64,000 bases of DNA from Spirochaetota bacterium (GTDB taxonomy: Bacteria; Spirochaetota; Brachyspiria; Brachyspirales; JACRPF01), in contig JBBTBY010000045.1 of the NCBI GenBank assembly GCA_038043445.1, forward strand, positions 1 to 64,000, written 5' to 3'. Shown piece after piece: positions 11,065 to 28,216 of this stretch. Each line of letters begins with the position of its first letter. Position 1 is the first letter of the stretch. The translations under genes and the position numbers were made by a program. The notes beneath the pieces are model-generated. The model saw only the letters and a list, made by a program, of their open reading frames with translations, had not been told where the DNA came from and did no database searches.

Positions 11065-11081
11065 CGTGAACACCGGCTGAA

Positions 11082-11121
11082 AGGCCCGGACAGGAAGACG
11101 TTCCTGCCCGGGCCTTTTTTT
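11082..11121 (+). terminator. Rho-independent terminator
   Basis: A 15-bp stem with a single mismatch (arms 11082-11096 and 11101-11115, core AGGCCCGG/CCGGGCCT), a GACG loop and a run of six T. It lies 18 nt after the small-protein stop. Confidence 0.9.
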
Positions 11122-11334
11122 ATTATCAGAAACCATCACCGGATCTTAGAGCGGAATATCCGATGTAAAACACAAGGCCTCTTATAAACCTGATGCGCTT
11201 ATGTAACCTGCGCATGATCCTGTCTGAATGTATCAAAAAACGGTATATGTACCGTATGATCTCATAACGTGAACGCCCGCGATCATAGGGAAGCTGGTCC
11301 CTATGGCTATATCACGCAGATTATCGGCGTATAC

Positions 11335-11745: not shown

Positions 11746-11782
11746 AATATTATTGTTGTTTTTGTCTGCATCCAGCCTCGGA

Positions 11783-11835
11783 CACTCACCCCCTCGGGGC
11801 TCCCCCTCTCTCACAGGGAAGTGAGAGAGGGGGAG
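11783..11835. repeat. C-rich/G-rich inverted-repeat element (family A)
   Basis: A perfect 15-bp stem (arms 11800-11814 and 11821-11835, CTCCCCCTCTCTCAC and its complement) preceded by ACTCACCCCCTCGGGG. The composition and the 'ACTCACCCC' opening resemble the elements at 31891-32000 and 37201-37294. It could terminate the minus-strand GxxExxY gene that ends at 11846. Confidence 0.65.
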
Positions 11836-11845
11836 AATAGCGTCC

Positions 11846-12220
11846 TTAAAGTCCGTTGACGATGCGGACTATGCCGTCTTTGAGAAGGACGGTGTTGAAG
11901 TTGAGAAGTAAGCCGAGTTTGAGGTTGGTGAGCTTGAGATAGGTAAGCAGCTGTTTCTTGTGTACCGCTTGGACGGTCTCTACTGATTTGACCTCAATGA
12001 TGACCATTTTTTCTACGATTATGTCTGCGCGAAAGCCGAACTCGAATACCTTGCCGCCGTAGTTTACAGGGACCACGATCTCGGTTTCGACCGATAAGCC
12101 GCTTTCACGTAATTCGTGTGCCAGTATGTTTTGATACACGGATTCTGGCAGGCCGGGGCCGAGATGACGATGCGCTTTCAACGCGCACCCGATGATCTGA
12201 TTTGAGATCTCATTTTCCAT
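11846..12220 (-). CDS. GxxExxY-family protein
   Basis: A protein of 124 residues from the ATG at 12220 (C-G-G-A-G ribosome site 7 nt upstream; longer frames upstream have no support). The diagnostic segment is G-L-P-E-S-V-Y-Q-N-I-L-A-H-E-L (G-x-x-E-x-x-Y), followed by F-R-A-D-I-I-V-E-K-M-V-I-I-E-V-K-S and Q-L-L-T-Y-L-K-L-T-N-L-K-L-G-L-L-L-N-F. The D...E-V-K pattern resembles the PD-(D/E)xK nuclease core. The biochemical role of the family is not established. These genes are patchily distributed and often near repeats and mobile DNA, as here beside an IS91-type transposase. Confidence 0.88.
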   Translation of the reverse strand: MENEISNQIIGCALKAHRHLGPGLPESVYQNILAHELRESGLSVETEIVVPVNYGGKVFEFGFRADIIVEKMVIIEVKSVETVQAVHKKQLLTYLKLTNLKLGLLLNFNTVLLKDGIVRIVNGL

Positions 12221-12314
12221 TGTAAACTCCGAATGAAAATAAATTGAGTCCGCTTGCAGGCAGGCCTCACTGATGACGGCCTGACTGCGAGCGGACGAAT
12301 CGTATGAGCATGCC

Positions 12315-12420
12315 CTTTGCGGTCTTTGCGGCTTCGCGAGATATTCTTGCCTTATGTATTTCCATGATACATGCATTGAAAAAGAAGAGCGTGTCTCGCA
12401 GAGGCGCAGAGTACGCAGAG
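12315..12420. repeat. Imperfect inverted repeat (family B-like)
   Basis: The CTTTGCGG...GCGAG arm (12315-12340) is mirrored imperfectly by CTCGCAGAG...GCAGAG (12395-12420). It lies between the GxxExxY gene and the transposase. The 'GCAGAG/CACAGAG' wording recalls the elements at 14971-15043 and 40981-41049. Confidence 0.5.
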
Positions 12421-12487
12421 TAGGAGAATTGCATCCTATGCAATACATGTCGGGCGGAATATTGATGTTTTTCGTGTTTAATTATAT

Positions 12488-13825
12488 GTGCAGACAAAAG
12501 GGATATATCGTCAACGTCGCCCAGAGCGATCCGCGCTCTATAAGGTAATGGAATCGCACTACGACGCTTTCCGTGAAGAGTATAATGTCGTTTATGGAGA
12601 ACAATATGGGTTTTTCCGGCCGGAAATAGATCGGGAAATGGCGAAGTATCGAAAATGCGGAATTCCGAAATACGGTTTCGCGCGAGTGCAGTGTAAAGAC
12701 GATGACTGCGGACACGAATTTATCCTTCCGTTCTCATGTAAATCGCGCGGTGCGTGCCCATCCTGTATGCAGAAAAACATGCTCGAGACCGGCGCTTTCA
12801 TCACCGAAGCGATAGCGCTTGAAGTACCCCACCGTCATATAGTCTTTACGATCCCGAAGCTCATGAGGAAGAATTTCTACTGGCATAGACCGGCACTCAA
12901 TGATCTGTCCCGTATGGCATGGGACTGTATTTTATCATTCATGTGTAATACGCTTCAGCAAGATGGGCGTCCCGGAGCGGTGTTGTCTATAGAAACCGCA
13001 GGCGAGTATCAGGACGGCAATCCGCACATTCACGCGGTAACGACCGATGGTATCTATACGCCGACCGGTTCATTCTACTTCATGCCTCGATACGGCGAGC
13101 TCGCGGAAAAGTATCTGCGTTCGCTTTGGGAGATGGCGGTTACGAAATACGTGCTTGAAAAGGGATTTGTCACCGAGGAGACGATAGAAAAGGTGTCCGC
13201 GTATCGGCATAATGGGTTCTCTGTATACGCTCGACGGCGCGTTGAATATAAGAAATCCGATGAAAGGAGCGTGGCCGAGTTCGAGCAGCTTGCGCGATAC
13301 ATCGTCAAGCCGCATTTCTCCCTTGAATCGATGGAGTATGTCCCGCAGACCGGGAAAGTTCTGTATCACGGCACGATGAACAAAGGGAAGCGGCGAAACT
13401 TTGAGATATTTGAAGCCAATGATTTTCTTGCTGCGGTAACCTCTCATATCCCGAAATATAGACAACGGTATTTAAATTATTATGGCGAGTACTCGAGCCG
13501 CGCGAGGGCGAAAGAAAAAGAGTATCAGGAAATGCCGCGGGAAGGTGCGTCTGTAGAGCAGCGGGAATATCGGAAACGATGGGCGATGTTGATCCGCAAA
13601 GTGTATGAGGTCGATCCATTAAAGTGTCCGAAATGCGGCAAAGAGATGCATATTGTCGAATACGTGCGCGAGGCGTATGCTTTTCTGTATAAGCAATGGC
13701 TCGTTTCTATTGATGCTTGGTATGTTGAACCCCCGAGGGCGCCTCCTGAACAGCCAGTGCTGGAGTTAACATACTGCGCAATCTCGGAAGATGCCCACTA
13801 TGTAGACGAATTTGCCGATGCATGA
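12488..13825 (+). CDS. IS91-family (HUH) transposase
   Basis: A protein of 445 residues. The N-terminal zinc-binding domain carries C-K-D-D-D-C-G-H and C-K-S-R-G-A-C-P-S-C. The HUH nuclease motif is N-P-H-I-H-A-V-T-T-D-G. A candidate catalytic tyrosine is in L-A-R-Y-I-V-K-P. A C-terminal C-P-K-C-G-K-E-M knuckle completes the usual IS91 layout and length. A TAA at 12479 in the same frame limits the start, and the GTG at 12488 restores the conserved Y-R-Q-R-R-P-E opening. The frame is intact, so the element may be active. Element ends could not be fixed; the 260 nt after the gene contain only small hairpins (for example GCGCCT/AGGCGC near 14010). Confidence 0.9.
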   Translation: MQTKGIYRQRRPERSALYKVMESHYDAFREEYNVVYGEQYGFFRPEIDREMAKYRKCGIPKYGFARVQCKDDDCGHEFILPFSCKSRGACPSCMQKNMLETGAFITEAIALEVPHRHIVFTIPKLMRKNFYWHRPALNDLSRMAWDCILSFMCNTLQQDGRPGAVLSIETAGEYQDGNPHIHAVTTDGIYTPTGSFYFMPRYGELAEKYLRSLWEMAVTKYVLEKGFVTEETIEKVSAYRHNGFSVYARRRVEYKKSDERSVAEFEQLARYIVKPHFSLESMEYVPQTGKVLYHGTMNKGKRRNFEIFEANDFLAAVTSHIPKYRQRYLNYYGEYSSRARAKEKEYQEMPREGASVEQREYRKRWAMLIRKVYEVDPLKCPKCGKEMHIVEYVREAYAFLYKQWLVSIDAWYVEPPRAPPEQPVLELTYCAISEDAHYVDEFADA

Positions 13826-14086: not shown

Positions 14087-14866
14087 TTATTTCAGAATTT
14101 CTTCCACCATCGATACGTTCTCTTCCACCATGCCGTCCTTATCCCCGCGATGCATCCCCACGTTCACCGCGTCCGTCGGCTTGATGTTCTCGAACGCGTA
14201 CTCGAACGCCATCCGCGGATCGATGCGCCCGGCGCCCATTATCTTGTACCCGATGCAGGGCTTTTTGATGTACTGTATCGCGCGAACCGCCTCCGCCATA
14301 TCGGCGAGACGGAATTTATGACCCTTGCCCGCGTGCAGACTTCCGCAGTTGAAGAAGCAGACGACATGGAAATCCGCTATGCCGTTGTCATACGCCCAGC
14401 GATGTGCGTCCGGTGAATGGCCCGCCAATCCGGCCGGCACGCCGCGTTTGCGGGCGTGATCGCACCAGGAGCGGAGCTGCTTGTCGTCCTTTCGTGCGTA
14501 TGCATCGTCGGTGAGTGCTCCGTGAAAGTAGAGGGCTTTGCAGCCTATCTCCACGGCTTCATCGATGGCCGCTTCCATGTTCGGCTTTGTGCGGCAATTT
14601 ATCTGGGCTATCCACTGCAGTGCACCCTTCTCTGCGCGGTATTCGCGCACCGCCTGGATGACATGCGGCGTCTCATTATTGGTTATCATCGTTGTGATGC
14701 CGGCCTTCTCGGCGCGCGCCCATGTCTCTTTGATGCGCTCGACGGTATTGTATGCGACCATGGCGGCATCGCGTTCTTTGCTCTGATGGCTGAACCCGCC
14801 GAAGGGATTTGCGCCGAGTATGAGTCGTGATATCTGCAGCCCACAAAAGCTGACCTGTGGTATCAT
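14087..14866 (-). CDS. TIM-barrel aldo/keto-reductase-like protein
   Basis: The start at 14866 gives 259 residues and the opening V-S-F-C-G-L-Q-I-S-R-L-I-L-G-A-N-P-F-G-G, which is the first strand of aldo/keto-reductase-like barrels. It has C-G-G-A-G as ribosome site. Later segments (T-M-I-T-N-N-E-T, A-L-Y-F-H-G-A-L-T-D-D, P-A-G-L-A-G-H-S-P-D, K-P-C-I-G-Y-K-I-M-G-A-G) fit a barrel. The canonical D-Y-K-H tetrad of true reductases is not evident, so the activity may differ. It is on the operon's strand but separated from manA by a repeat-filled gap of 183 nt; it may be independently transcribed. Confidence 0.6.
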   Translation of the reverse strand: MIPQVSFCGLQISRLILGANPFGGFSHQSKERDAAMVAYNTVERIKETWARAEKAGITTMITNNETPHVIQAVREYRAEKGALQWIAQINCRTKPNMEAAIDEAVEIGCKALYFHGALTDDAYARKDDKQLRSWCDHARKRGVPAGLAGHSPDAHRWAYDNGIADFHVVCFFNCGSLHAGKGHKFRLADMAEAVRAIQYIKKPCIGYKIMGAGRIDPRMAFEYAFENIKPTDAVNVGMHRGDKDGMVEENVSMVEEILK

Positions 14867-14970
14867 GGGGAACTCCGTTTTTTCGATCACGTGCAGCGTA
14901 CCGGGAAATGGTATCGTAAATGGAAAGGAATGCAAGTGCGAAGCGCTATGATAATTAAGAACAGGAACGA

Positions 14971-15043
14971 CCACGGAGGTCACAGAGAAGCACAGAGAAC
15001 AGTAAGGGCTTGATCTTCTCAGTGCCCTCAGTGCGCTCCGTGG
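14971..15043. repeat. Inverted-repeat element (family B)
   Basis: CCACGGAG (14971-14978) pairs with CTCCGTGG (15036-15043). Inside are CACAGAGAAG and CACAGAGAAC and their rough complements CTCAGTGCCC and TCAGTGCGC. It has the same design as 40981-41049 and may terminate the long minus-strand operon's neighbour. Confidence 0.7.
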
Positions 15044-15049
15044 TTGTAT

Positions 15050-16126
15050 TTATTCCTTATCTGATGATGTTTGGCGACAAAGAATCGGTGGTGATGCAAT
15101 AAATATCGAAACGGGTGATGCCCCTCCGTTCATGATGTTCACCGCTTTAGCTGCATACGGTATGATGAACGCATCGCCTTTGCCGAATCGTATTCCCGTC
15201 CCGTCAAAACGCCCCTCGCCGTCCATAATGATCGCGATAGCGAAGCTTGTCACGGGATAGGATATTGATGCTGTGACGGTAAGGATGCGCACGCCGAAGA
15301 ATTCGCGCCATTTCCCGTTGAGGAGATCGACGTCGGCATCGCCTGTGCTCTTCGATGCGAGTGAACGGAGGAGCGATGCCCCGCGCGCTCCGTCGAGATC
15401 GAAGCTTTCGAACATGCGGTCGTCGCCGAGATCCATATGTACCTGTGCCGGTGTCAAGTCCCAGCACGGGCCTTTTTTATCGAGCTGGAACACGAAATCG
15501 CTCGGCTCCTGCACCTCGATGCAGAACACACCGCTGCCGATGGCGTGCGGCACACGACCGGGGATGATGAAAAAATCATGCTCCTTCACGCACACTTTAT
15601 TGAGCATGGAAAGCATGGCGGGCACGTCCTGCTCATCGTACGCACGTCGGAACGATGCCTTATCCGCATTCTCAGTGAACCCGAGATACACATGCGGCGG
15701 TACACCATCGATGGTGCGCCCGCCGAGTATATACCATGTCTCGGTCTTGCCGTATTCGGCGGAAAGATATTTCTTCGAGAACGCGCGGTCCGGATGCGAC
15801 TGTATGGGGAGGCGGATAAGCGAGTCGAGTTCCTTTACGAGCACGCCCGTCCTGTCGCCGATGCGCTTTCTATGCGCAGTGCCGAACAGCGCTTCCGGAT
15901 GCTCGGTGATGAGCGTCGTCAGGGCCACGTTCTCTCCGTCGATGATCACCTGCGATATGCCTTCACCGGTATCACCGAGCGCAGCCGTATCCGATCCTAT
16001 CCAGTTCTCGGGAAAAAAACCGTCCGTGCATATGTTCTTGCCGAGGAAGCGGTCAATGAGCGCGCCGCCTTTATAGATGCGCGAAACGCGGTTCTCTTCG
16101 AGCTTGAGAGGTCTATCTATTTTCAT
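15050..16126 (-). CDS. manA: Class I mannose-6-phosphate isomerase (ManA-like)
   Basis: A protein of 358 residues from the ATG at 16126 (A-A-G-G-A-T upstream). Zinc-site motifs of type I phosphomannose isomerases are visible: I-Q-S-H-P-D, K-T-E-T-W-Y-I-L-G-G and V-P-H-A-I-G-S-G-V-F-C-I-E-V-Q-E-P-S-D. The enzyme interconverts mannose-6-phosphate and fructose-6-phosphate in the cytosol. It is the last gene of the minus-strand operon and overlaps the FGGY kinase by 14 nt. In this operon it may act on the product of that kinase, delivering it to glycolysis. The exact sugar is inferred, since this family also accepts related hexose phosphates. Confidence 0.82.
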   Translation of the reverse strand: MKIDRPLKLEENRVSRIYKGGALIDRFLGKNICTDGFFPENWIGSDTAALGDTGEGISQVIIDGENVALTTLITEHPEALFGTAHRKRIGDRTGVLVKELDSLIRLPIQSHPDRAFSKKYLSAEYGKTETWYILGGRTIDGVPPHVYLGFTENADKASFRRAYDEQDVPAMLSMLNKVCVKEHDFFIIPGRVPHAIGSGVFCIEVQEPSDFVFQLDKKGPCWDLTPAQVHMDLGDDRMFESFDLDGARGASLLRSLASKSTGDADVDLLNGKWREFFGVRILTVTASISYPVTSFAIAIIMDGEGRFDGTGIRFGKGDAFIIPYAAKAVNIMNGGASPVSIFIASPPILCRQTSSDKE

Positions 16127-17465
16127 ACGATAACATCCTTCCTGCCGATAGAAAATCTCCGTTTCCCGAACCGACGAAAGCCGAGAGCGCCGCACCGACA
16201 GCGGCTTCTTCCCGATGCAGAGTGAACCGTATCGGATGACCGAAACGTTCCTTTACGATGGCGCGGAGCAGGGCGTTCTTCCGAAGTCCATTGCCGGAGC
16301 CGGTGAGCGACCGGACGCGTCCGCGAACGGTCTTCGGCATTCGATTGTACATGTCATAGAGCTCATCCGTCATACCGTCGCAGAAACCGACGATGAGATG
16401 TTCAGGCGTGAGGTTATCCATGGAGATATTCGATATGGAGCCGCGCACCGATGCGTCCGTGCGTGTTCCGGCGAATCGTGTATCGACGGTCAATCTCTCC
16501 GCGAGTGTTCCGATCTTGAGGGCATTCATGAGATCGAAAATATCGCCGGGATCTTTTTCGCCGAAGAACGACAATGTTCTTTCGAAGAACTGATGCAGCA
16601 GGGCGTACGATTTTCCGCCGCAGAGCGATGCGCCGACGAGGAGATAGCCCCCGCCGGGGAAAGGACGGGTATCGACACCAGGGACGGCAGCATATCGTTC
16701 CGTGTATGCAGATATCTGTGCGCCGGTGCCGATATTGATGAGCGCTGTTCGGCAGATATCCTTGACCGAGCCGAGGAAACTCGCCTGATTGTCACCGAGT
16801 GCGGTGTATACGGGGATGCCGCGCCATGTGCCCGCTTTTATTCCGGACGGGACTATTTTCGGGAGCAATGCTGCGCCGATACCGGCTTTCTGCAAAGCGC
16901 GTTCATCGAAGCGAAGCGATCTGAGGTTGAATACGCCGAAACTCGCGGCATTCGTCGCATCAATGCGCGGTTCATTTGCTCCGGTCAATCGCATGACAAG
17001 ATGGTCCTGTATCGTACAGAAAGACGATGCATTCTTCGGCACGCATCTTGTTATGATGTTGTAGTAATGCGTCGCCATGCCGAATCCCGGTGCGACGGCG
17101 TATCCTGTTGCGGCGGAAAGAGAACCCGCGTACGTGGTCTTTCGATAGGGAAGTCCCGCGCGTCCGTCCTGCCAGGTCATGAGCGGGCTCGCCGCGTTGC
17201 CGTTCTTATCGACATAGACGATGCCGTGCATCTGTCCTGTCACACCGATGCCACGGATGTTCGGATATTTCCTGAGGAGCGATGTGAGGATATTTTCTGC
17301 TGTCGTGATGATCTTTTCCGTATCCTGTATGCGCTCCCATGTCCGTGATGTCCGTATGAACGACCGATTATCCTTCGTGATGGAAGCGATGATGCGCCGC
17401 CGCTTCGTGTCGATAACCGCTCCGCAAATGGATGTCGTGCCAATATCTATGCCGATGTATCTCAT
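16113..17465 (-). CDS. FGGY-family carbohydrate kinase (xylulokinase-like)
   Basis: A protein of 450 residues from the ATG at 17465. The ATPase-fold phosphate-1 motif is at the N terminus (Y-I-G-I-D-I-G-T-T-S-I-C-G). Substrate-domain phrases G-V-T-G-Q-M-H-G and T-W-Q-D-G-R resemble xylulokinase. N-I-G-T-G-A-Q-I and L-T-G-S-G-N-G-L-R-K-N are the second-domain adenosine-binding motifs. It phosphorylates a sugar or polyol with ATP in the cytosol. It overlaps the URO-D gene by 4 nt (ATGA). The substrate is not deducible: xylulose, fuculose, rhamnulose and others are all used by this superfamily. Its pairing with a ManA-like isomerase argues for a hexose derivative. Confidence 0.85.
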   Translation of the reverse strand: MRYIGIDIGTTSICGAVIDTKRRRIIASITKDNRSFIRTSRTWERIQDTEKIITTAENILTSLLRKYPNIRGIGVTGQMHGIVYVDKNGNAASPLMTWQDGRAGLPYRKTTYAGSLSAATGYAVAPGFGMATHYYNIITRCVPKNASSFCTIQDHLVMRLTGANEPRIDATNAASFGVFNLRSLRFDERALQKAGIGAALLPKIVPSGIKAGTWRGIPVYTALGDNQASFLGSVKDICRTALINIGTGAQISAYTERYAAVPGVDTRPFPGGGYLLVGASLCGGKSYALLHQFFERTLSFFGEKDPGDIFDLMNALKIGTLAERLTVDTRFAGTRTDASVRGSISNISMDNLTPEHLIVGFCDGMTDELYDMYNRMPKTVRGRVRSLTGSGNGLRKNALLRAIVKERFGHPIRFTLHREEAAVGAALSAFVGSGNGDFLSAGRMLSYENR

Positions 17466-18520
17466 GCTGCACCTGCTTCTGGAACGCATATATGGTCGAG
17501 TGTTGTTCGCCCTGCCGCTCGGAAGAGTGCGCGTATGTTCTCGAAGGGGACATCGTGTATGCGGTGTGCCGGCGAAAGAATGTATCCCGATCCGAATATG
17601 CCGCAGGTCTCCCGAGCGATACGCTCTATTTCTTCAGGGCTTCCATGACGGAGCAACTCCTGTGTATCGATGCCGCCGAGGAAAGAGAGCGAATCCCCGA
17701 ATTGCCGCTTCAATCCTGCCGGTGCCATGCCGGGAACGTTCGGCTGTATCGGGTTGAGTATATCAAGTCCGAGTTCGATGAGGTCAGGTATTATCGGGGC
17801 GATAGCGCCGCAGGAATGATGTGCGATGATGACGTCCGGCTTGTATCGCTTTATTCCGCGCCAAAGCTTTGCGACGAGCGGCTTTATCGATGTTCGCCAC
17901 ATGTCCGGTGAAATGAGCATGCTCTGCTGTGTTCCCCAATCGTCGCCGGTCCAGATGATATTGGCGCCGACATCGATGCAGTGCTTCGCCACCGCGAGCG
18001 TGTATTCGATGTGGCGTTCGAAGAGCGGCAGCATTGCGCGCTCGTCCATGGCGAGGGCGAGCATGGTCGGTTCCATGCCGTAGAGGCTGTATGCGGCTTC
18101 GAAAACGATAGGGGAGATATCGACGAGGATGGGATATTCTTTTCCATATCGTGCGACCTGCCGTCTGAGGATGTCGTACTTGCCGGGGGCGTTTGGGTCC
18201 GGATGACGATAAGAGGGCACGGCATCGATATCCCTGATCGGATATTCGACGATATTGAATGAATCGTTCTGTTTCAGGAAGCGGAAACCGAATTCGGAGA
18301 TGCGTTCTTCGCCGTCGGCCATCGACTGCATCATATATGCGTTCATACCCATGTCCACAGGGACGATATCATTGCCGAGCGACGGATGCAGATCGAGCAC
18401 GTCAACGCGGAGCGCTGCCGCCAGACGCGCTTCCCATTCGGGGCTGAACCAGACATAGAGCGGCTGTTCTGTACCGGACTCATGCCCAACAGTGCGCTGG
18501 ATACGTTCCTTCGCGGTCAT
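17462..18520 (-). CDS. URO-D-superfamily protein (uroporphyrinogen decarboxylase/MtaA-type methyltransferase)
   Basis: A protein of 352 residues, close to the URO-D superfamily length. It starts T-A-K-E-R-I-Q-R-T-V, the usual opening, and has A-H-H-S-C-G-A-I-A-P, the metal-binding-like segment of MtaA/MtbA corrinoid methyltransferase relatives, then G-L-D-I-L-N-P-I-Q-P and F-L-G-G-I-D-T-Q. No haem biosynthesis genes are nearby, and genes of this subgroup often sit in sugar or demethylation clusters rather than haem operons. A methyl-transfer or decarboxylation step on an operon metabolite is inferred. It overlaps both neighbours by 4 nt, so expression is tightly coupled. Confidence 0.8.
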   Translation of the reverse strand: MTAKERIQRTVGHESGTEQPLYVWFSPEWEARLAAALRVDVLDLHPSLGNDIVPVDMGMNAYMMQSMADGEERISEFGFRFLKQNDSFNIVEYPIRDIDAVPSYRHPDPNAPGKYDILRRQVARYGKEYPILVDISPIVFEAAYSLYGMEPTMLALAMDERAMLPLFERHIEYTLAVAKHCIDVGANIIWTGDDWGTQQSMLISPDMWRTSIKPLVAKLWRGIKRYKPDVIIAHHSCGAIAPIIPDLIELGLDILNPIQPNVPGMAPAGLKRQFGDSLSFLGGIDTQELLRHGSPEEIERIARETCGIFGSGYILSPAHRIHDVPFENIRALFRAAGRTTLDHICVPEAGAA

Positions 18521-19554
18521 GGCGTCGTCCTCCGTGCGTGTTCAATGATATCGCCTTTTCTGAGTATCGTGGATGCTTTCCATGTTCTCGGTTTTGTGTT
18601 CTGTTCGATGAGCCGGTCATAGGCGGTGCGTGCGAGAACTTCCATCGGCTGTGCATACACCGTGATAGCAAGTTCGGATGCGCCGGGAAGGTCATCAACG
18701 CAGGCGACTACGATCGATCGTGCGTGTGCGGACGCCCGCTGTACTGCCATGCCGATGACGCCGTTCCCGCATATGACAGCATCGATGGACGACGGCAGTG
18801 TGCCGAGCAGGGCTATGGCATCTGTGTCAATGCTTTTTTCCCGTCTCCACGGCAGTCGGTACACTGCGTTCACGCCATGGCGTACGTACGCGGCCTCGCG
18901 TTCGATAGTGCTTGTGATGACATCGTTCTCCCATCCGACATAGGCGATGTGCTTTGCGCCATGCTCGATGAGGCGGTCGTACAGTGAATCTATGGCGTGG
19001 GCATTATCGACGCTGATAAAGTCAGCGGTGTTCGAATCGACGATGCGGTCGAAGAGCACGAAATTCATCCCGAGACCGCGGAGCCGGGCAAGGCGGGGGA
19101 CATCGATAGATTCATCGTAGGGCCAGATGACGGCGCTTCGTATGCCGCGTTCGTAGCATCGAAACACCGTGTCCTCGATGCGTGCGCCGCCCGCTTTATA
19201 CACGACAAGTGTATCGTTCCTCTCCGCGGCAGCCTCGAAGCAGCGGATGAATTCCGCGAAGAAAGGATTCTCCGCTGGCGCGATGACGGCGCAGATGTCC
19301 AGGGCTCCTGCATGCGCTTTTGCAGTGAGCGATACATGCGTTCCGTGGCCCTGCCGCCGCGAGATGATGCCTTCTTTCTCCATGGCATCGAGGGTGCTGC
19401 GCACGGTAACACGGCTCATGCGGTGCTCGTCCGCAAGATCACGTTCCGGGGGCAGCAGCGCTCCGTCGGCGTACGTGCCTTCGTATATTTTCTGCGCGAG
19501 CAGTCTTCTCAGCTTCAAGTGGAGCACTTCGTCCGAAGAGACACGCCGTTTCAT
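18517..19554 (-). CDS. GntR-type HTH / LacI-type sensor transcriptional regulator
   Basis: A protein of 345 residues. The N-terminal winged helix (residues ~8-75) shows L-L-P-P-E-R-D-L-A-D-E-H-R-M-S-R-V-T-V-R, the GntR recognition region. The rest (A-L-D-I-C-A-V-I-A-P-A-E-N-P-F-F through V-A-C-V-D-D-L-P) is a periplasmic-binding-like sugar-sensor domain, as in AraR-type repressors. It sits inside the operon with 4-nt overlaps on both sides, so it is probably autoregulated. The perfect 7-bp inverted repeat at the operon promoter (25165-25183) is the natural candidate operator. The inducer is presumably a sugar or its derivative. Confidence 0.87.
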   Translation of the reverse strand: MKRRVSSDEVLHLKLRRLLAQKIYEGTYADGALLPPERDLADEHRMSRVTVRSTLDAMEKEGIISRRQGHGTHVSLTAKAHAGALDICAVIAPAENPFFAEFIRCFEAAAERNDTLVVYKAGGARIEDTVFRCYERGIRSAVIWPYDESIDVPRLARLRGLGMNFVLFDRIVDSNTADFISVDNAHAIDSLYDRLIEHGAKHIAYVGWENDVITSTIEREAAYVRHGVNAVYRLPWRREKSIDTDAIALLGTLPSSIDAVICGNGVIGMAVQRASAHARSIVVACVDDLPGASELAITVYAQPMEVLARTAYDRLIEQNTKPRTWKASTILRKGDIIEHARRTTP

Positions 19555-21971
19555 ATTCGTGTGGACCCCGGATCGAGACGCTTCATGATATCATCCTGAA
19601 TCGCAGGCGATAGATCGAGAAAATTCACGAACGTGCCGTGTATGCGCATGATGTAGATGCCGTTGGGCGCGTGCTTTTTCGGATGTGCGAGCACTTTCCG
19701 AAGCATGGCGGGTGTGTTCACGTTCACATAGAGATAGAACGGCGCCGTTCCATCGCTCGAAAAGAACAGCGGGTGTATGACGCGCTCCTTAAATGCGCGG
19801 CCTTTATCTTCGAAGGTGTCCTCGGGGAAGTATCGCGGGTCAATGCCGTAGTGCGATGCGTATCCGCCGGTCATGAGGTCGAAGGGCATTTTTCTTACCG
19901 AGAGCGTGCGAAAGCCGAGCCCGGTTATCGCCTCGCCGAACAAGGGGTCGATGCCGTAGCCGAGCATTTCGCGAGCGTGACGCCCGTCCGGTGTTGCGCC
20001 TGTCCAGTATCCGTAGAGTAGATGCGTGGATGGGGAACTGAAGTCAGGTCGAAACGGATTGCCGAGATAATTCTTCTGCGCGCTGATACGGCGGGCGACA
20101 TGCTTCGCGAGCGTTTTGGCTTCATCATCGACTGATGTGATATTGTTCCCGTATTTCGGAGCCGATGCAAGGAATTGACGAAGGTCTTCATCATTTATGA
20201 AATCGTTCTTGAGCGCCGCAAGAAGGCGAACCGCGTCATGAGGACGTTCTGCGATGAGCGAATCGATGGCGGCGAATGAATCAGCGACGACGGACAGCCC
20301 ATGGATGAGGCAGCCGCTGCCGTTATACTTCGTGCCCTGCTTTTTCGCATCGCGCATATCCACGCCGCTCTCTATCCCGCCCATAAGCGTGGATATGAAC
20401 GGTACGCGAAGAAGGGAGAGCGCTTTTGCGCAGCCGTTCGACGCTGCAGTCATGCGCTCGATGAAGCTGTCGAGATTCGCGTAGAATGCCGGCCGTATGC
20501 TGCGAAGGAGGGCGATAGGATCTTTACAAAGGGGCACTCCCCCTTGTTCTCTCGTCTCTGTGACAGTTTTCATATCAACATGTTCCGCTATTTCGCCGAT
20601 CGATGCCCCGCTGATAGTCGATACACCGCCGGAAAGCGTAAGTTCGAGCACTTTCGCGAGATTGAGCCAGCTTGCCGTGGTGTTGCCGTTATCCTTGCCC
20701 ATGATGAGCGGTTCCTGACAGCCGGCTATCGAGTAATCCGCAAGGTCGCTTCGTGCGACGCCGGAACGTTCAAGAACGGCAAAAAGTGAATCATCATTAA
20801 AGAGCGACGGCGTCAGCATTCCCGGTGTGAAGAAGAAGCGTCCGAGCGAAGCGTACATCTCTTTCGGTGTTCCGCTATGCAGTTTCACCGATAATATCGG
20901 CTGCGGATAGTTGCATTCGAAGTAGGCGTCGAGCACAGCGTAGCTCATTTTGTTGGTGAGATCTGCTCCATGCGCATCGCGTCCGCTTATCATGAGGTTC
21001 TGCGATATCGCCCAGCTCCTGTCGCCGACATTGAAGAACGTGAGGAGATGCTTCATGAGCGCTGCGGAATATGCACGGTCATTATCGTCCATGGCCCGGT
21101 ACGGCTCGAGCATGCGGTCGATATTGCCGACGGAGAATGCGTACGGATTGGGTGACTGCTCAAGGCACATGACCTGCCAGAGGAGGATGAACGATTGTAT
21201 CGCTTCGTAGAGGCTGCATGCGCCGTAGAGCGGGACGCGTGTGAGCGTTTCGGAGATGAGTGTAAGCTCTTTTGCGCGCTCTGTATCGGCAGTGCGGCTC
21301 TGCTCGCGTGCGAGCGTACTGTATCGCCCTGCGAGTTTTATCGCCGCTTCGAGCGATGACTTCATAGCGGTGAGCGTCGTGCGCTTTTCCGCATCGGCCT
21401 CATGTGAAAGCCGTGTGTCGATGCGCTCCATCTCATATGCTATGCCGTGAGCGAGTATCGGTCGGAAGTCGGCTATCGTGTGCCCGCTTACCTGCTCGAC
21501 GAAATAGGCGACCTCTTTCGTATCGTTCTCGATGCCGGAATAGACGTGCTTAAGCTCGCGTACGTAGTGCGTCGATGCGAAATATGTCCGCACGTTCTCG
21601 ATGCGCTCCTTCGTGAATTCGTCATTCGGTTCGATGTCGTTGTATACAGCAAGCGGATCGCAGTAGCCCGCGAACGATTCCACCGTGAATGCCGGATTGA
21701 TGAGCGCGTAACTGCGCGCGAAGGCATCGCGCTGTGTGCCGGCGAATACGGCGGCCTCAGGTATCGATATCGGCAGCTCCTCCGCGATGCGTACGAGCGT
21801 TTTTGCGGCGGCTGATTCGGGGTGATCGTCCCTGAATTCTTTTGCGCATCGCATGCGGATCTCCTGAACGATGAACCAGCCGTCAAGTCGCGTGCGGCAG
21901 CGTTCGGCGCTGAACAGCGCTTTGGCTTTATCGGACAGATGAGCGGCGCTATGGATAGTTTGATATGTCAT
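19551..21971 (-). CDS. Divergent glycyl radical enzyme (PFL-like, CxE eliminase type)
   Basis: A protein of 806 residues. I chose the second ATG (21971) because AGAAGGGA lies 6 nt upstream; the first is at 21977. The active-site loop is S-I-A-G-C-Q-E-P (Cys ~418, Glu ~420). The C-x-E pairing is that of eliminases such as diol, glycerol and hydroxyproline dehydratases, not the C-C of pyruvate formate-lyase. The C terminus carries I-M-R-I-H-G-T-F-V with the radical Gly ~779, 27 residues from the end, followed by the usual L-S-x-x-x-Q-D-D-I. Thr replaces the Tyr that normally follows the Gly. The activase is encoded in the same operon. Dehydration or C-X cleavage of a sugar-derived substrate is inferred. 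No microcompartment genes are present. Confidence 0.88.
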   Translation of the reverse strand: MTYQTIHSAAHLSDKAKALFSAERCRTRLDGWFIVQEIRMRCAKEFRDDHPESAAAKTLVRIAEELPISIPEAAVFAGTQRDAFARSYALINPAFTVESFAGYCDPLAVYNDIEPNDEFTKERIENVRTYFASTHYVRELKHVYSGIENDTKEVAYFVEQVSGHTIADFRPILAHGIAYEMERIDTRLSHEADAEKRTTLTAMKSSLEAAIKLAGRYSTLAREQSRTADTERAKELTLISETLTRVPLYGACSLYEAIQSFILLWQVMCLEQSPNPYAFSVGNIDRMLEPYRAMDDNDRAYSAALMKHLLTFFNVGDRSWAISQNLMISGRDAHGADLTNKMSYAVLDAYFECNYPQPILSVKLHSGTPKEMYASLGRFFFTPGMLTPSLFNDDSLFAVLERSGVARSDLADYSIAGCQEPLIMGKDNGNTTASWLNLAKVLELTLSGGVSTISGASIGEIAEHVDMKTVTETREQGGVPLCKDPIALLRSIRPAFYANLDSFIERMTAASNGCAKALSLLRVPFISTLMGGIESGVDMRDAKKQGTKYNGSGCLIHGLSVVADSFAAIDSLIAERPHDAVRLLAALKNDFINDEDLRQFLASAPKYGNNITSVDDEAKTLAKHVARRISAQKNYLGNPFRPDFSSPSTHLLYGYWTGATPDGRHAREMLGYGIDPLFGEAITGLGFRTLSVRKMPFDLMTGGYASHYGIDPRYFPEDTFEDKGRAFKERVIHPLFFSSDGTAPFYLYVNVNTPAMLRKVLAHPKKHAPNGIYIMRIHGTFVNFLDLSPAIQDDIMKRLDPGSTRI

Positions 21972-22011
21972 TCGCATTCCCTTCTACTGGCATTGTCGTC
22001 ATTACGGTCGT

Positions 22012-24246
22012 TCAGCGCTGCGGGATATCGAATGCGTCCCCGACGGTCTGCATCTCTCCGCGGGCGGCGGCCTCAACAATGGGGCGATGCGAGCGATAAA
22101 GCCCGATGCGTTTGCCGTCCCGGTACACGTAGACGAACACCTCGGTATCCCAGAACGGTTTATCCAGAACGGTCACGGCAAGATCGGCGCTGTCTTTCGG
22201 GTACACGGCATCGGGCTTGTGGGGAGAGGGGTGATAGACGAACCACGAATTGAGCCCTGCGGGAAATTCCCGTTCAGCAATGAGCGCCTTATCGCAGAAC
22301 CGTATCAGCACTTTGGCCGGTTCTTTCAACGCGACGGTGATGCCGATATAGTCCGTCGGGGGCGTCGTCGTAGCCCAGGCGAAAGCACCCATCGGTTCGC
22401 GCTTTATTTCTTTGGAGCGATAGAAGTCGGCCAGATCCGAGCTTATGGACCGCTGCCATCTCGTCTCGCCGCCGGCAGGCAGGAGCACCTTGCCGGCTAC
22501 CTGCGGATGATGGAACAGGAGCAGTTTTTCGTTCTCTATCTTCGGCAGAGCACCCGTGTTAAGCCATGCGGCATAGAATTTATTGAGCTCATAGAACGCG
22601 AAGCCGTGATTGCTCTCCGGCATGAGCGCGGAATCCTCGGAAAGGTCGTTCCACGTCGGTATCATGACGACCGGTGCGTCGACAGCGATAGCCGTGCGCC
22701 AGTCGTCGATGAAGTTCACCATGCCGAGCTTCTCACGGACATTCGGAGTTGTCAATGGCGGACGGCTCTGGGTGAACGACGGCATGACGGGGTACCAGAA
22801 TTCTTTGCCGGCAGCGTCAACGCAATCTTCGGCTTTTGCCCGTTCCTGTATCGCATGACCGTAATCGGCGTGGAACCAGTCGGTATACGCGTCGGCGCCG
22901 GCGAACCAGAGCGGATTTTTTTCCTTCAGGGTTGCCGGAGTGTAGAGGACAAGGAATACCGCGTCGCGTCCGCCGATCCTGTCGAAGAGCAGTTTCATCG
23001 CTTCCGGATAGGAGAAGAGTTTACCCCTGCCGTAGTCGGTCCACATCGTTACCAGCAGTTTCCCCCGGTATCGCCGCCACGACTTTTCATGCTGCTTGAG
23101 GATGAGCAATTCGTTGCCGATCTTTTCAAGCATGGGTGCGCTTTCCAGGTTCGCCCAGATATCCGGCGCTATCTTGAAGTCGCCGTCTTCAGCAGCGGCA
23201 TTGAAGAGCGCATGTATCATGCTTGCCGCATAGCTCGCGGGCAGATGGCTGTTGCCGAGGAGGCAGCCGAACGTATTGACACCGCATGCCTTGGCCATGG
23301 CGATGTCCTGCCGTGCAGCCTCGAGCGGGCGCCTGGTGTTCACGAGATAGGCATCGATATGGGTCGCCATAGTGCCGTTCGGGAGCGTCGGCGGTTCTGA
23401 AAAATTCTGTGTCACCTGGGCATCGGTAGTGTCGATACCGCCGTTCAGCCCGGGAACATCACATCCGACGGACATGCATGGCATATAATGTGAAATTATC
23501 AATTTGTCGGTCTTCGCACGCGCAGCATTCCTCGCGCGTCTCTCGGAGATCTTTTTCAGCATATCCGTTCCCGATGGCAGCGTATCCTTTTGCTTCATGG
23601 CATCATCTCCGGTGATCTCTATGTTCCCGACGAGTATATCGGTGACAGGTCGTGCGCCGAAACCCGTTTGGATCTGCATCGTTGAGTACGTTCCCCCCGA
23701 AGAGAACGGACCCCAGCCGGAAAGCGCTATTTCCCGAGCGCTGCCGCCATGTTCGGTTATCGAAAGTGATGCTGCGTCTTCAGTGCCGCAGGGCGGGATA
23801 CTGAGCGTGCAGTGATACCAGACACCGCGCGTGAACGTGCCGAGCGGCTTTTGATCGCCGCCGAAGGTGATGGTATCGTTGCCGGTGAACACAAGATAAT
23901 CGTTCGTGCCGACTTGATCGAACAGGCGAAGGAGAAAAACGCCGTCCCCGCCGCGATATGTCGTTTCTTCTTGTATCCGCACATCGAAGGAAATGGCCAT
24001 GCCCCCGCGGGCGGATATCTTCTTCATGACGTACGGTGCGTTGGCCGACCCCGCAGGGACACGCAGGTGCAGCACAGGGCCGATCTTTCCGAACGGCGAG
24101 CCCGTTGCCGCTTCGATGATGTTGTTCGCGTCACGTTTCCCTGCCGTCCATCCGATAAAACCGTCGATGAATTGGGCGTTCGCGAACGCTGTGCAGATCA
24201 TCCCCGCTGCGATGATGCACGCGATACGTTTTTTTCTTCGATACAT
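22012..24246 (-). CDS. Secreted GH71-like glycoside hydrolase
   Basis: A protein of 744 residues from the ATG at 24246 (GGAGG 7 nt upstream), with a signal peptide ending near A-F-A-N-A-Q. Residues ~25-220 look like a beta-sandwich module (W-Y-H-C-T-L-S-I). From ~250 a barrel domain follows (K-L-I-I-S-H-Y-M-P, C-G-V-N-T-F-G-C-L, V-V-M-I-P-T-W-N-D-L-S-E-D-S). T-W-N-D with an acidic residue shortly after is the hallmark of GH71-type alpha-1,3-glucanase-like enzymes; a related T-W-N-D-Y-P-E occurs in the protein at 34787. An extracytoplasmic action on an alpha-glucan or other polysaccharide is inferred, and the family assignment is tentative. It lies between the activase and its glycyl radical enzyme. 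Confidence 0.65.
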   Translation of the reverse strand: MYRRKKRIACIIAAGMICTAFANAQFIDGFIGWTAGKRDANNIIEAATGSPFGKIGPVLHLRVPAGSANAPYVMKKISARGGMAISFDVRIQEETTYRGGDGVFLLRLFDQVGTNDYLVFTGNDTITFGGDQKPLGTFTRGVWYHCTLSIPPCGTEDAASLSITEHGGSAREIALSGWGPFSSGGTYSTMQIQTGFGARPVTDILVGNIEITGDDAMKQKDTLPSGTDMLKKISERRARNAARAKTDKLIISHYMPCMSVGCDVPGLNGGIDTTDAQVTQNFSEPPTLPNGTMATHIDAYLVNTRRPLEAARQDIAMAKACGVNTFGCLLGNSHLPASYAASMIHALFNAAAEDGDFKIAPDIWANLESAPMLEKIGNELLILKQHEKSWRRYRGKLLVTMWTDYGRGKLFSYPEAMKLLFDRIGGRDAVFLVLYTPATLKEKNPLWFAGADAYTDWFHADYGHAIQERAKAEDCVDAAGKEFWYPVMPSFTQSRPPLTTPNVREKLGMVNFIDDWRTAIAVDAPVVMIPTWNDLSEDSALMPESNHGFAFYELNKFYAAWLNTGALPKIENEKLLLFHHPQVAGKVLLPAGGETRWQRSISSDLADFYRSKEIKREPMGAFAWATTTPPTDYIGITVALKEPAKVLIRFCDKALIAEREFPAGLNSWFVYHPSPHKPDAVYPKDSADLAVTVLDKPFWDTEVFVYVYRDGKRIGLYRSHRPIVEAAARGEMQTVGDAFDIPQR

Positions 24247-24265
24247 GCTTATGCCTCCACGATCT

Positions 24266-25162
24266 TCATCTGTTCGTTCTCGCATGATTTGCAGGTCCGG
24301 AAGTGCCGGCCATGTTCATCCCGTGCTCACGGAATATCGCTTCTGCTTGCGGTATCGAGAGCGTATCTCCCGATGCGGGGTGATAAGTTTTCCCGCACTG
24401 TTGCCATTTGACAGCCCCGTATTCATGATAGACGAGGAATTCGACCCGCGTGTTCGCCCCGAACATCGGTGCGAGCGATGCGAAACGCCGAATATCATCC
24501 ATTGTGCTGTTAAAACCGGGAATGAGCGTGATGCGTACGATGAGTGAGACATCGTTTTCGGTAGCAGCGGCAATATTTGCACGGACCTGCCTCATCGATG
24601 TGCCGGTGACGGCAGATGCGACCGCATCGTCGTGATGTTTCATATCGATGATAAGCGTATCAATAAAGGGGAAGAGCTCCGGCAGACGAGCATGCGTGCC
24701 GTTCGTTTCCATTGCGGTATCGATATCCTGTGAATGGAGCGCTTTAAGGAAGGTGCGTGTGCCGTCGAACTGCATCGTCGGCTCACCGCCGGACAATGTC
24801 ACGCCGCCGCCGCCGTGAAAAAGACTTTTCGCAGATAGAACTTCCTGAACCAGCGCATCGATACGGCAGGGGGATGCGCTCAGTCGTATGCCTTCGTTGC
24901 GATTCCTGGACACGCATTCTTTGCCCGTGCATCTTGCGCATAACGTTCTATCGAGCGTATCGGTAATGGCGCCGTGAGGGCATACGGCGGGGGTTAGTTT
25001 TGCCGCATTGACGATAAGCGTACCCGCTTCCATTCCCTCGGGGTTGGAGCACCAGGGGCAATGGAGATTGCACCCCTCGAGATGGTAGATCAGGCGATTG
25101 CCGGGGCCGTCCTCGCCGAAGTTCCAGCCCTTCTGGAATAGTGAGAGTGTCGCGCTGCTCAT
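24266..25162 (-). CDS. Glycyl radical enzyme activase (radical SAM)
   Basis: A protein of 298 residues. The radical SAM motif is C31-N-L-H-C35-P-W-C38. It also has G-x-D/E-G-P-G-N-R (E17-D-G-P-G) of PFL-activase-type proteins and the S-G-G-E-P motif. A single auxiliary ferredoxin-like cysteine set is inserted (C61, C75, C78, C83), fewer than the eight of the larger activases. It uses SAM and a 4Fe-4S cluster to install the glycyl radical on the enzyme encoded two genes downstream. First gene of the operon. The ATG at 25162 lacks a ribosome site, and the predicted -10 box is only 5-10 nt away, so the mRNA may be leaderless. Confidence 0.92.
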   Translation of the reverse strand: MSSATLSLFQKGWNFGEDGPGNRLIYHLEGCNLHCPWCSNPEGMEAGTLIVNAAKLTPAVCPHGAITDTLDRTLCARCTGKECVSRNRNEGIRLSASPCRIDALVQEVLSAKSLFHGGGGVTLSGGEPTMQFDGTRTFLKALHSQDIDTAMETNGTHARLPELFPFIDTLIIDMKHHDDAVASAVTGTSMRQVRANIAAATENDVSLIVRITLIPGFNSTMDDIRRFASLAPMFGANTRVEFLVYHEYGAVKWQQCGKTYHPASGDTLSIPQAEAIFREHGMNMAGTSGPANHARTNR

Positions 25163-25164
25163 AT

Positions 25165-25200
25165 GGTATTATATAGTAATACCAATTATGTAAAAGTCAA
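25165..25200 (-). promoter_or_regulatory. Operon promoter overlapped by a palindromic operator; near-leaderless start
   Basis: On the minus strand, TTGACT (25200-25195), a 16-bp spacer and TACTAT (25178-25173); an alternative TATAAT sits at 25173-25168. A perfect inverted repeat GGTATTA-N5-TAATACC (25165-25183) covers the -10 region and ends 2 nt before the activase ATG. This is an ideal repressor site for the GntR-LacI regulator made by the same operon. Confidence 0.65.
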
Positions 25201-25299: not shown

Positions 25300-26646
25300 A
25301 TGAGAAAAACAAGCAGAAGAGAATTTCTGAAGGCAGGCGGCATGTCGGCACTGGGCATAATCGCGGGAAGTTTTGCATCGAAACTTTTTGCTGAAACTGC
25401 ACGGTCGAATGCCGGGGCGTACAAGTCGATGACCTTATCCGAACGGCCGTCCACCATACTTACAAGCGCTGATGTCGTAGTGCTCGGGGCAAGCCTTGCC
25501 GGTCTGGCTTTGGCGGTACTTGCAGCACGTATGAATAGGAAAGTGATGCTTATCGATGCCGGACCGGTGCTCGGTACCGAGATATCCGGTCAATGGGATA
25601 TGCATGTGCCCGAGGGCTGGCTCGCCGATGAGCTTGCTGAGCTATGCCGTCCTCAGGGCGGTTATGCTGACGGGCGGTTCGATCCGTTCATTACCACACT
25701 GGCATGCGATCGGTTGGCGCAATCGGCAGGCGTTACTTCTCTGGTATGCGCACTGCCGATACGGCCGATCGCCGGTGCAGGCGGCATGCTCCACGGCGTG
25801 GAGATCGTCGGAAAAAGCGGCCGGCAGCTTATCGCTGCACCGCGTATCATCGATACGACCGCAGGAAATGTTTTCTCATACCGCGCATGCGGCCTCAATA
25901 TACCGATTGCAACGGCGGTCACGAGGCGAATGTATTTGTATGGGATCTCTTGCAATGCGCCCAAGCGTATAAGCGTTTCGGGATCGCTTGGGGTTGCAGC
26001 GGACAGTATTGAGGTGCAGCCGACGCTTTGGCCCGATGAGGTCATCGTTTCATATTCGATGCAGACGAACAGTGCGATGAGCAGAATAGCCCTCGGCGCG
26101 ATGTCATACCATGCCGGTTTCTTGATCATGCAGCATCTGCACAAAGAGCATTCTGAATTTGAAAAGTCTTTATTAGTGGATATCGCGCCGGAGATTAAAA
26201 TAACATATCCTGCAGTCGAACCGGATGTTCTGCGGGTGATCGAGAATACTGGTGTCGTGCAGATCGATGCCGGTAAAGCGGTCACGGATAAGCAATGGGC
26301 AATGGATCATCTCAAGAATGTATTATCAAAAACGATACGGCCGTTTCCCGTGGGCACTGCAGTGACGATGACCGGTCATACTGTCACGAGTGAACTGAGC
26401 GCGGCAGTCGAGCAAGGTTTTTCGCGTACTGTTCTCCCGCCGGTACGTGCAGTGATACATGAGCATTCCGATGTTGTCGTAGCGGGATGCGGCTGCGGGG
26501 GCGCATTCGCGGCATTGGCTGCGGGGGGGGAAGGGGGTGCGTGTCACCATGCTCGATACTACCGGCATCCCCGGCGGAACCGGCACTGCGGGAAAGCTGC
26601 TCGGTTATTATCACGGCATCAATGCCGGTCTTCAGAAGGCCATTGA
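25300..26646 (+). CDS. Tat-exported FAD-dependent oxidoreductase, N-terminal part (frameshifted)
   Basis: The start M-R-K-T-S-R-R-E-F-L-K is a twin-arginine signal, so the protein would be exported folded. A first FAD-type Rossmann motif is at residues 59-90 (V-V-V-L-G-A-S-L-A-G-L-A...I-D-A-G). A second begins near residue 394 (V-V-V-A-G-C-G-C-G-G-A-F-A-A-L). The frame is then lost in a G8 tract (26523-26530), and everything after it (G-E-G-G-A-C-H-H-A) is out of frame. With seven G the frame would run straight into the 26537-28216 reading frame, giving one ~970-residue protein with two Rossmann domains. The fold resembles FAD-dependent oxidoreductases found beside glycosidases. No ribosome site is obvious: only ~9 nt separate the -10 from ATG. 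Confidence 0.78.
   Translation: MRKTSRREFLKAGGMSALGIIAGSFASKLFAETARSNAGAYKSMTLSERPSTILTSADVVVLGASLAGLALAVLAARMNRKVMLIDAGPVLGTEISGQWDMHVPEGWLADELAELCRPQGGYADGRFDPFITTLACDRLAQSAGVTSLVCALPIRPIAGAGGMLHGVEIVGKSGRQLIAAPRIIDTTAGNVFSYRACGLNIPIATAVTRRMYLYGISCNAPKRISVSGSLGVAADSIEVQPTLWPDEVIVSYSMQTNSAMSRIALGAMSYHAGFLIMQHLHKEHSEFEKSLLVDIAPEIKITYPAVEPDVLRVIENTGVVQIDAGKAVTDKQWAMDHLKNVLSKTIRPFPVGTAVTMTGHTVTSELSAAVEQGFSRTVLPPVRAVIHEHSDVVVAGCGCGGAFAALAAGGEGGACHHARYYRHPRRNRHCGKAARLLSRHQCRSSEGH
26523..26530. repeat. G8 homopolymer causing a frameshift
   Basis: Eight consecutive G follow 'GCTGC' inside the second Rossmann motif; seven would restore the frame (A-G-G-K-G-V-R-V-T-M-L). A second G5 run begins at 26533. 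Such a tract is slippage-prone: it may be a phase-variation switch, a fixed mutation or a sequencing error. Confidence 0.85.
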
Positions 26647-28216
26647 TGTGAAGGTTAAAGATGCACAGTCAGTCACGGGGCCCGCAAACGGATTGCATCC
26701 CGTTGCAAAGACCGAGACGCTGTGGCGCGAACTGGAGAAAGTGAACGCACGGTTCGGAGAAGCAGAGCGGGTGTTCGGCGTAATAAAGAACGGCAACACC
26801 GTAACCCATGTACTTGCGGCCGCCGAGGACGGGTATCACGCCTACCCCTGTACAGTATCTGTCGACGCCACCGGAGACGGTGATCTCGCGGCGGCGGCTG
26901 GGGCGAACTATTCCATGGGAAGAGACAGCGACGGTTTTCCGCTTTTTTACGGCTATCTCCCGATACAAGCGGCAAAAGGGAAAATGAGCTATTATGTGAA
27001 GTTCACGAATAATGGATTGGGATATGTCGATCCGACCGATACGCTTGATTATTCCATAGCGCATTTCAGCGGGAGGGCATCGCTGTGGAGGGAGGGGCCG
27101 TTCACCGCGGAGAAACATTATTGCGCATTGGCATCTCTCCTCGGCATCCGGCAGGGACGATCTATCCACGGGCCGGTAGTGCTGACCGCGGAAGATTTCG
27201 CACAGGGACGGACGTGGCCGGATAAAGTATGCGCCATGTCCTCCAATTATGATCGCGCGGGATTTTTTGCTTTAGAGAACGACTGGATACAACGATGGGT
27301 GGTGATGTTCGGTTTATTCCCATTTGTCCGCACCGGTGAGATACCGTATCGGGCTCTCTATCCGGAAGGCGTGGAGGGGATGCTCCTCGCATGCCGTGCA
27401 TTTTCCGTGGAGCATGACCTTGCCTCCCTCACACGCATGAGGCATGATATGCAGCAGCTCGGTGAAGTGAGCGGCTTGGCTGCTGCACTGGCCGTTCAGA
27501 GCGGCAGATCCCCTTCGTGTATCGATGTGGCAGCGCTGCAGGGTGAGCTTCGGGAACGGGGCGTATTGCCCGAGGAAGCACCCGAGAAAATCCTCGATGT
27601 GCCGACGGATGAGCTTTTGAAAAAACTTGGCGGGGAACAGAACGGCTTAGCGATGTGGAGATTGTCGCAGAAAAATGGCGACCCTGATTGGGAACGCTTC
27701 GCCAACGAGGAGGGCGATCAGCGTAAGCACTTCTGTGCGGGAGTAGCCGCAGCAATGCGGGGCGACACGCCGAATGTTCTTATGAAGGTCCTTGAGAAAG
27801 CCGTGGATGACCGCATTGATAGTCCGCGATTGGGTGACCGTTCGAGCGCGCTCTGTGTCGTGGCTGCACTCGCATTGGCTCATGCAAAGGGGACGGCTGC
27901 GTCGGCGCGTATCGCGGCGCTTCTTGCGGACGTTCCCCGAACACCGTATCTGAGGCAGCCGGAGATAACGCTCATCTATCGCGCGCTCGGGATAGCGGGC
28001 GGGCGCGATGCGGTCAAAGCGATACAAGGCCATCTCGCGTCCATGGATGCGCCCAAGACCAGCGATGATATGCAGGTTGTGTTTGCCGGAGTGAAAGAGC
28101 TGCAGGGCTTAGGCTGCTTCGATGAGTCGCATCGTTTGGAACCGCATCGACAGTCCGAATTCTTCCTGTTCAGGAAGGCTGCTTTGCGCCTGGATGCGGC
28201 AAGGAAAAAGCAGTAG
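26537..28216 (+). CDS. FAD-dependent oxidoreductase, C-terminal part (frameshifted continuation)
   Basis: This frame continues the second FAD domain (V-R-V-T-M-L-D-T-T-G-I-P-G-G-T-G-T-A-G-K-L) and includes the conserved V-D-A-T-G-D-G-D-L-A-A-A-A-G-A strand of FAD_oxidored-type proteins. It then has a substrate domain (to ~residue 300) and a helical HEAT-like tail. I see no independent start: the nominal first codon lies inside the Rossmann fold and lacks a ribosome site, so it is best read as the 3' half of the gene that starts at 25300. With the G8 tract uncorrected, this part is not translated from the upstream start. Confidence 0.75.
   Translation: MRVTMLDTTGIPGGTGTAGKLLGYYHGINAGLQKAIDVKVKDAQSVTGPANGLHPVAKTETLWRELEKVNARFGEAERVFGVIKNGNTVTHVLAAAEDGYHAYPCTVSVDATGDGDLAAAAGANYSMGRDSDGFPLFYGYLPIQAAKGKMSYYVKFTNNGLGYVDPTDTLDYSIAHFSGRASLWREGPFTAEKHYCALASLLGIRQGRSIHGPVVLTAEDFAQGRTWPDKVCAMSSNYDRAGFFALENDWIQRWVVMFGLFPFVRTGEIPYRALYPEGVEGMLLACRAFSVEHDLASLTRMRHDMQQLGEVSGLAAALAVQSGRSPSCIDVAALQGELRERGVLPEEAPEKILDVPTDELLKKLGGEQNGLAMWRLSQKNGDPDWERFANEEGDQRKHFCAGVAAAMRGDTPNVLMKVLEKAVDDRIDSPRLGDRSSALCVVAALALAHAKGTAASARIAALLADVPRTPYLRQPEITLIYRALGIAGGRDAVKAIQGHLASMDAPKTSDDMQVVFAGVKELQGLGCFDESHRLEPHRQSEFFLFRKAALRLDAARKKQ

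Follow-up and report, generated by a model that had tools for sequence, protein, structure and literature searches.

The question raised by the locus described here is what a glycyl radical enzyme (GRE) that departs from the fingerprint of its family is doing inside a sugar operon. The locus lies in a 64,000-nucleotide stretch of spirochaete DNA, referred to below as the window. Our best reading is that this GRE and its orthologue represent a new subfamily of GRE eliminases with a sugar or sugar phosphate as substrate. That the enzyme is active, of the eliminase kind and directed at a carbohydrate within a substrate-induced operon is a view we hold with middling confidence, and the breakage of a C-O bond in the sugar would probably proceed via a reaction not described before. 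A first-pass annotation of this DNA had suggested a new substrate, perhaps a modified sugar, and we infer the same. The features of the locus are the following.

25173..25200, minus strand: promoter-like sequence TTGACT-16-TACTAT, overlapped by the palindrome
25164..25184: operator-like palindrome TGGTATTA-CTATA-TAATACCA (21 bp, N5 spacer; operon strand), immediately 5' of the activase ATG
24266..25162, minus strand: radical SAM GRE activase, 298 aa, CxxxCxxC kept, ferredoxin insert reduced
22012..24285, minus strand: secreted GH71-like protein, accessory, missing from the sister operon
19551..21977, minus strand: GRE, 808 aa, with C420-Q-E422, H166, radical G781 and loop RIHGTFV
18517..19554, minus strand: repressor with GntR HTH and LacI-type sensor, overlapping the GRE gene by 4 bp; 57% in the sister operon
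17462..18520, minus strand: URO-D/MtaA-like protein, accessory, missing from the sister operon; the genome has 43 such proteins
16113..17489, minus strand: FGGY carbohydrate kinase with TGQMHG motif; 65% in the sister operon
15050..16195, minus strand: divergent ManA-like cupin isomerase with metal-ligand pattern QxH/E/H; 66% in the sister operon
14087..14983, minus strand: uncharacterised protein 3' of the isomerase, no Pfam or NCBIfam match, operon membership uncertain

The GRE matches PF02901 (PFL-like) at 315 bits, the cut-off being 24.3. Its start is either the ATG at 21977 or M3 at 21971, the position at which the orthologue also begins and the end coordinate given in the first-pass annotation, where no strand was stated. 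The Cys loop reads AGCQEP (residues 418-423) and residues 777-797 (MRIHGTFVNFLDLSPAIQDDI) contain the glycyl loop with R778 and G781; the Cys-Gln-Glu site and R-I-H-G-T-F-V loop described in the first-pass annotation are thus both present. C420, R778 and G781 are invariant in the superfamily alignment. An orthologue with 78% full-length identity was found in a second genus of the same family (Spirochaetes bacterium NC_groundwater_1980, contig JACRPF010000013.1) and its glycyl and Cys loops are identical to those of the window GRE, which rules out assembly error, named in that annotation as a possible source of the unusual loop. Among 393 Spirochaetota genomes, matches at E < 1e-100 were limited to two, those of the window and of the second genus. 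In a peptide-pattern scan of 84,980 species the orthologue was the sole match; these patterns are specific and could miss more distant relatives in other phyla. Viral contigs gave no match to the orthologue profile and four distant matches to a wider profile, the two inspected being PFL- or NrdD-type, and all plasmid matches listed had at most 27.3% identity to the GRE. Among the genomes searched, two carry this GRE, an oxygen-sensitive type of enzyme, in a groundwater spirochaete lineage.

Apart from the orthologue, everything searched is at most 28% identical to the GRE, with identities over the alignment of 27% for B12-independent glycerol dehydratase (GDH), 25% for 1,2-propanediol dehydratase (PD), 25% for PflD, 24% for YbiW, 22% for hydroxyproline dehydratase (HypD) and 21% for PFL. 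The authors of work on aminoacyl radical enzymes (AAREs) treated 40-50% identity as below the threshold separating most functionally distinct GREs (PMC11528403). The best PDB match is GDH 1r8w (207 bits). Scores of 228 bits for TIGR01774 (PFL2/glycerol dehydratase-type, cut-off 678.2) and 160.4 bits for PRK09983 (PflD, cut-off 1109) fall short, the NCBIfam equivalogs for HypD, CutC, HpsG/HpfG, the indoleacetate and hydroxyphenylacetate decarboxylases and PFL are also missed widely, and no IslA or BssA match was among the NCBIfam matches listed. In a maximum-likelihood (ML) tree, the orthologue pair sits on a stem of ~2.6 changes per site and is joined to PFL via long branches, a deeper placement that we do not trust. 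These low identities and missed equivalog cut-offs agree with the initial impression that the enzyme does not fit the choline, glycerol, propanediol, hydroxyproline, isethionate or arylacetate systems, a roster that left out YbiW and PflD, which are sugar GREs acting as 1,5-anhydroglucitol- and 1,5-anhydromannitol-6-phosphate lyases (PMC12441222). As a separate observation, a GRE that groups with YbiW on the Chloroflexota plasmid CP069395.1 (1011-7872 of locus L065) adjoins a D-allose-type ABC transporter and a ROK protein, possibly forming a non-PTS anhydrohexitol operon there.

The published GRE fingerprint is RVXG[FWY] (PMC11528403), and both orthologues break it with RIHGT. Tyr or Phe follows the radical Gly in the other loop-bearing GREs (52 gathered), bar one damaged or mis-called hit, as had been stated for known families in the first-pass annotation. 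Since R778-Q794 align without gaps to GDH, PD, YbiW, PflD, HypD and PFL, the radical Gly is identified as G781, and the unusual residue is T782, which replaces the aromatic one. A threonyl radical at T782 was considered and rejected because it would take compensating indels in a loop that otherwise aligns free of gaps, and assignment as an AARE was rejected because G781 aligns gap-free with the radical Gly. Members that break the family-recognition fingerprint in this way can be overlooked or wrongly assigned when GREs are surveyed automatically.

Comparison with 38 eliminase-type GREs shows that the window GRE is changed at 33 positions whose conservation among them is at least 85%, for example R285N, Q288R, Q750Y, Y782T and GPTA to GLGF at 686-689; H166, C420, E422, R778 and G781 are kept. 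Judged from the alignment, it is possible that T782 and the other departures (33 near-invariant positions in all) leave a reduced or altered radical function. A stronger version, in which the GRE is degenerate or its radical chemistry has been lost, could draw on the broken fingerprint, the 33 changed positions and the reduced activase, but all catalytic residues and the CxxxCxxC of the activase are kept, the GREs of the two genera are 78% identical and the operon is conserved, making such a loss highly improbable.

The retained residues instead point to an active eliminase. The C-x-E motif conserved among GRE eliminases (PMC7077986) is present as C420-Q-E422, and H166 is the equivalent of GDH H164 and HypD H160. 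These residues, the loop Gly and the PF02901 match support an eliminase GRE, and C-x-E together with the His suggests C-O elimination as its chemistry. A dedicated activase, operon-encoded in both genera, supports an eliminase GRE in its own operon. This activase scores 168.7 bits with TIGR02494 (cut-off 174.35); CxxxCxxC is present and one of two ferredoxin-type Cys sets is largely lost, consistent with the single extra cysteine set noticed at first, and the extra cysteines C61, C75, C78, C83 and C99 are all conserved in the orthologue.

The substrate pocket has changed more than the catalytic residues. In the alignment, H281, S282 and D447 of GDH, which we take to be its substrate contacts in 1r9d, are replaced by Y279, A280 and T434. 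The HypD substrate residues are known, and the short helix of the beta2-beta3 connector places HypD S334 or GD F333 against the substrate (PMC7077986); D278, S334, D339, F340, Y450 and T645 of HypD are not conserved in the window GRE. This connector has 21 residues, compared with 31-34 in most aligned GREs, all characterised ones included, so that 11 residues of the active-site-capping segment are absent and the Phe333 segment of GDH is deleted. The shortened connector fits a larger ligand, an argument made from an alignment at ~25% identity. An AlphaFold2 model built from the two orthologues had a mean pLDDT of 32 and was discarded. A dehydratase of small diols or polyols similar to GDH and PD (acting on glycerol, 1,2-propanediol or a C4-C6 alditol) might be expected from the best PDB match and the retained C-x-E and His, but loss of the three GDH contacts disfavours a small-diol substrate, as does deletion of the Phe333 segment. 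Nor was a BMC shell gene found in either genome, the operon has no aldehyde or alcohol dehydrogenase, and we regard this alternative as very unlikely.

The neighbouring genes named in the first-pass annotation are all confirmed. The window operon runs in the order activase, GH71-like, GRE, GntR/LacI repressor, URO-D, FGGY kinase and ManA-like isomerase, and that of the second genus in the order activase, GRE, repressor, FGGY kinase and ManA-like, followed by GH130. Five genes (activase, GRE, repressor, FGGY kinase and ManA-like) are common to both genera and so form the core, with URO-D and GH71 as additions. Of the URO-D/kinase neighbourhood whose conservation was to support novelty, the kinase/isomerase sugar operon held up and URO-D did not: as a diagnostic partner of the GRE it was rejected, since the sister operon lacks it and it belongs to a 43-member expansion in the window genome (16 matches in the second-genus genome). 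Some copies of this URO-D/MtaA-like expansion lie within 10 kb of other GREs. As also expected, no microcompartment genes were found, with no BMC-domain gene in either genome, and the operon contains no transporter genes. A second GH71-like protein, with a laminin-G domain, is encoded elsewhere in the window (34787-37201, plus strand), and the genome has 13 GH71 matches.

The ManA-like protein scores 48.5 bits with TIGR00218 (ManA, cut-off 116.2) and is a dedicated paralogue, the housekeeping ManA being encoded on another contig. Its subfamily occurs in 8 of 387 spirochaete genomes. Homologues of the ManA-like protein and the FGGY kinase in other spirochaetes adjoin GH42, mannitol dehydrogenase-like or ABC sugar transporter genes, which do not fix the substrate. 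At another spirochaete locus (L080, from G374:C21, about 5600-13200), a ManA-like protein of this subfamily occurs with URO-D, an FGGY kinase split into two frames and an OMPdecase/HUMPS-family protein, and no GRE was seen in the 19 kb examined. The operon kinase carries in the alignment the M-H pair that is a feature of xylulokinase/gluconokinase-type FGGY signatures (PMC3245297), a weak hint that an open-chain ketose or aldonate may be phosphorylated.

The control region links these genes. The 21-bp palindrome is identical in both genera and lies in a 30-bp promoter/operator block (ATAATTGGTATTACTATATAATACCATATG) that is also identical in the two; beyond this block, their upstream sequences differ. 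With up to 3 mismatches allowed, the palindrome has no second copy in the 64-kb window, where 0.08 sites would be expected, or in the 20-kb sister locus, where 0.02 would be. Nothing else argues as strongly as this conserved operator-like site that the operon is a single unit with its own repressor, whose binding there is predicted from sequence. Divergent from the operon, an FAD-dependent oxidoreductase (FAD_oxidored) is encoded at 25300-28216 (plus strand) in two overlapping frames, possibly reflecting a frameshift or assembly error.

Several lines of evidence suggest that the GRE substrate is a carbohydrate: the linked kinase and isomerase, the repressor type, the surrounding glycan enzymes and the opened pocket. 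A sugar role is further supported by the five-gene core with its identical 30-bp block, in which two sugar-type enzymes are linked in both genera. One candidate is a distant ring-opening lyase for a 1,5-anhydrohexitol or its 6-phosphate, similar to YbiW and PflD, with the FGGY kinase taking the place of PTS phosphorylation. The sugar GREs known so far are YbiW and PflD (PMC12441222), and from the GH71-like and GH130 genes it seems that glucan or mannan is degraded nearby. But the window GRE, at 24-25% identity, is no closer to them than to GDH and does not share YbiW-like residues at the mapped active-site positions, and such a route would leave the linked ManA-like isomerase with no obvious function. 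The FSA/TalC aldolase for 1-deoxyfructose 6-phosphate was not found in either genome; another aldolase could substitute for it. Its absence and the lack of special similarity disfavour a route of the YbiW/PflD type, which we consider unlikely.

Alternatively, the GRE could split a sugar from an O-linked small unit, as in a glycosyl-glycerol or glycosyl-glycerate, and the freed hexose would reach fructose 6-phosphate via the kinase and the ManA-like isomerase. This would account for both linked sugar enzymes and for the enlarged pocket. However, we know of no GRE that carries out such a cleavage, and FGGY kinases rarely act on aldohexoses, leaving this route with a low probability.

The genomic setting beyond the window also bears on the preferred reading of a sugar-directed eliminase. 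Four further PF02901 proteins were identified in the window genome. Three of these, divergent GREs on contigs 28, 88 and 154 (10467-12797 of locus L126, 10224-12404 of L127 and 11391-13475 of L128), are all far from every NCBIfam cut-off and have beta2-beta3 connectors of 16-19 residues. Their loci contain GH130, GH42, GH71, CBM9, acetyl xylan esterase-like or sulfatase-like genes, and this presence of three other GREs in glycan loci supports a sugar role for the window GRE. A single clade of all short-connector GREs gave AU p = 0.33. Tentatively, this lineage may use several distinct trimmed-cap GREs as sugar-directed C-O lyases in glycan-degradation loci, the window GRE catalysing without the post-Gly aromatic. 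These short-connector enzymes may be the more interesting lead.

Under the eliminase reading, the GntR/LacI repressor would stay bound to the palindrome, covering the promoter, and be released by a sugar ligand, and the activase would then generate the radical on G781. Transfer from G781 to C420 would give a thiyl radical that abstracts hydrogen from a hydroxyl-bearing carbon of the sugar. With E422 and H166 in acid-base roles, the adjacent C-O bond would be broken (by water loss, ring opening or departure of another O-leaving group) to give a deoxy-carbonyl sugar. Phosphorylation by the FGGY kinase and isomerisation by the ManA-like enzyme could prepare either the substrate or the product for glycolysis. 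If the GRE does act on sugars, radical C-O cleavage would be added to anaerobic glycan breakdown, for which a literature search found 1,5-anhydrohexitol pathways only. The conserved repressor site and the small size of the operon make the substrate question directly testable.

With GDH (1r8w/1r9d) and 1,2-propanediol dehydratase the window GRE shares the GRE domain, the C-x-E loop, the H164 equivalent (H166) and the radical Gly, but identity is about 27% and 25%, the loop is RIHGT rather than RVAGY, there is no BMC, and the GDH contacts H281, S282 and D447 are lost with the Phe333 segment. The C-x-E and H160 of HypD are kept, yet identity is 22% and D278, S334, D339, F340, Y450 and T645 are not shared. 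YbiW and PflD of E. coli are likewise C-x-E GREs with their own activase in a sugar context; they differ in their 24-25% identity and in that the window operon has an FGGY kinase and a ManA-like isomerase and no PTS genes, with FSA aldolase not found in the window genome. Finally, the glycyl fingerprint deviates both here and in the aminoacyl radical enzymes TRE, SRE and ARE (PMC11528403). In those enzymes the radical Gly itself is replaced by Ala, Ser or Thr, whereas the window GRE keeps the Gly and Thr replaces the aromatic residue next to it.
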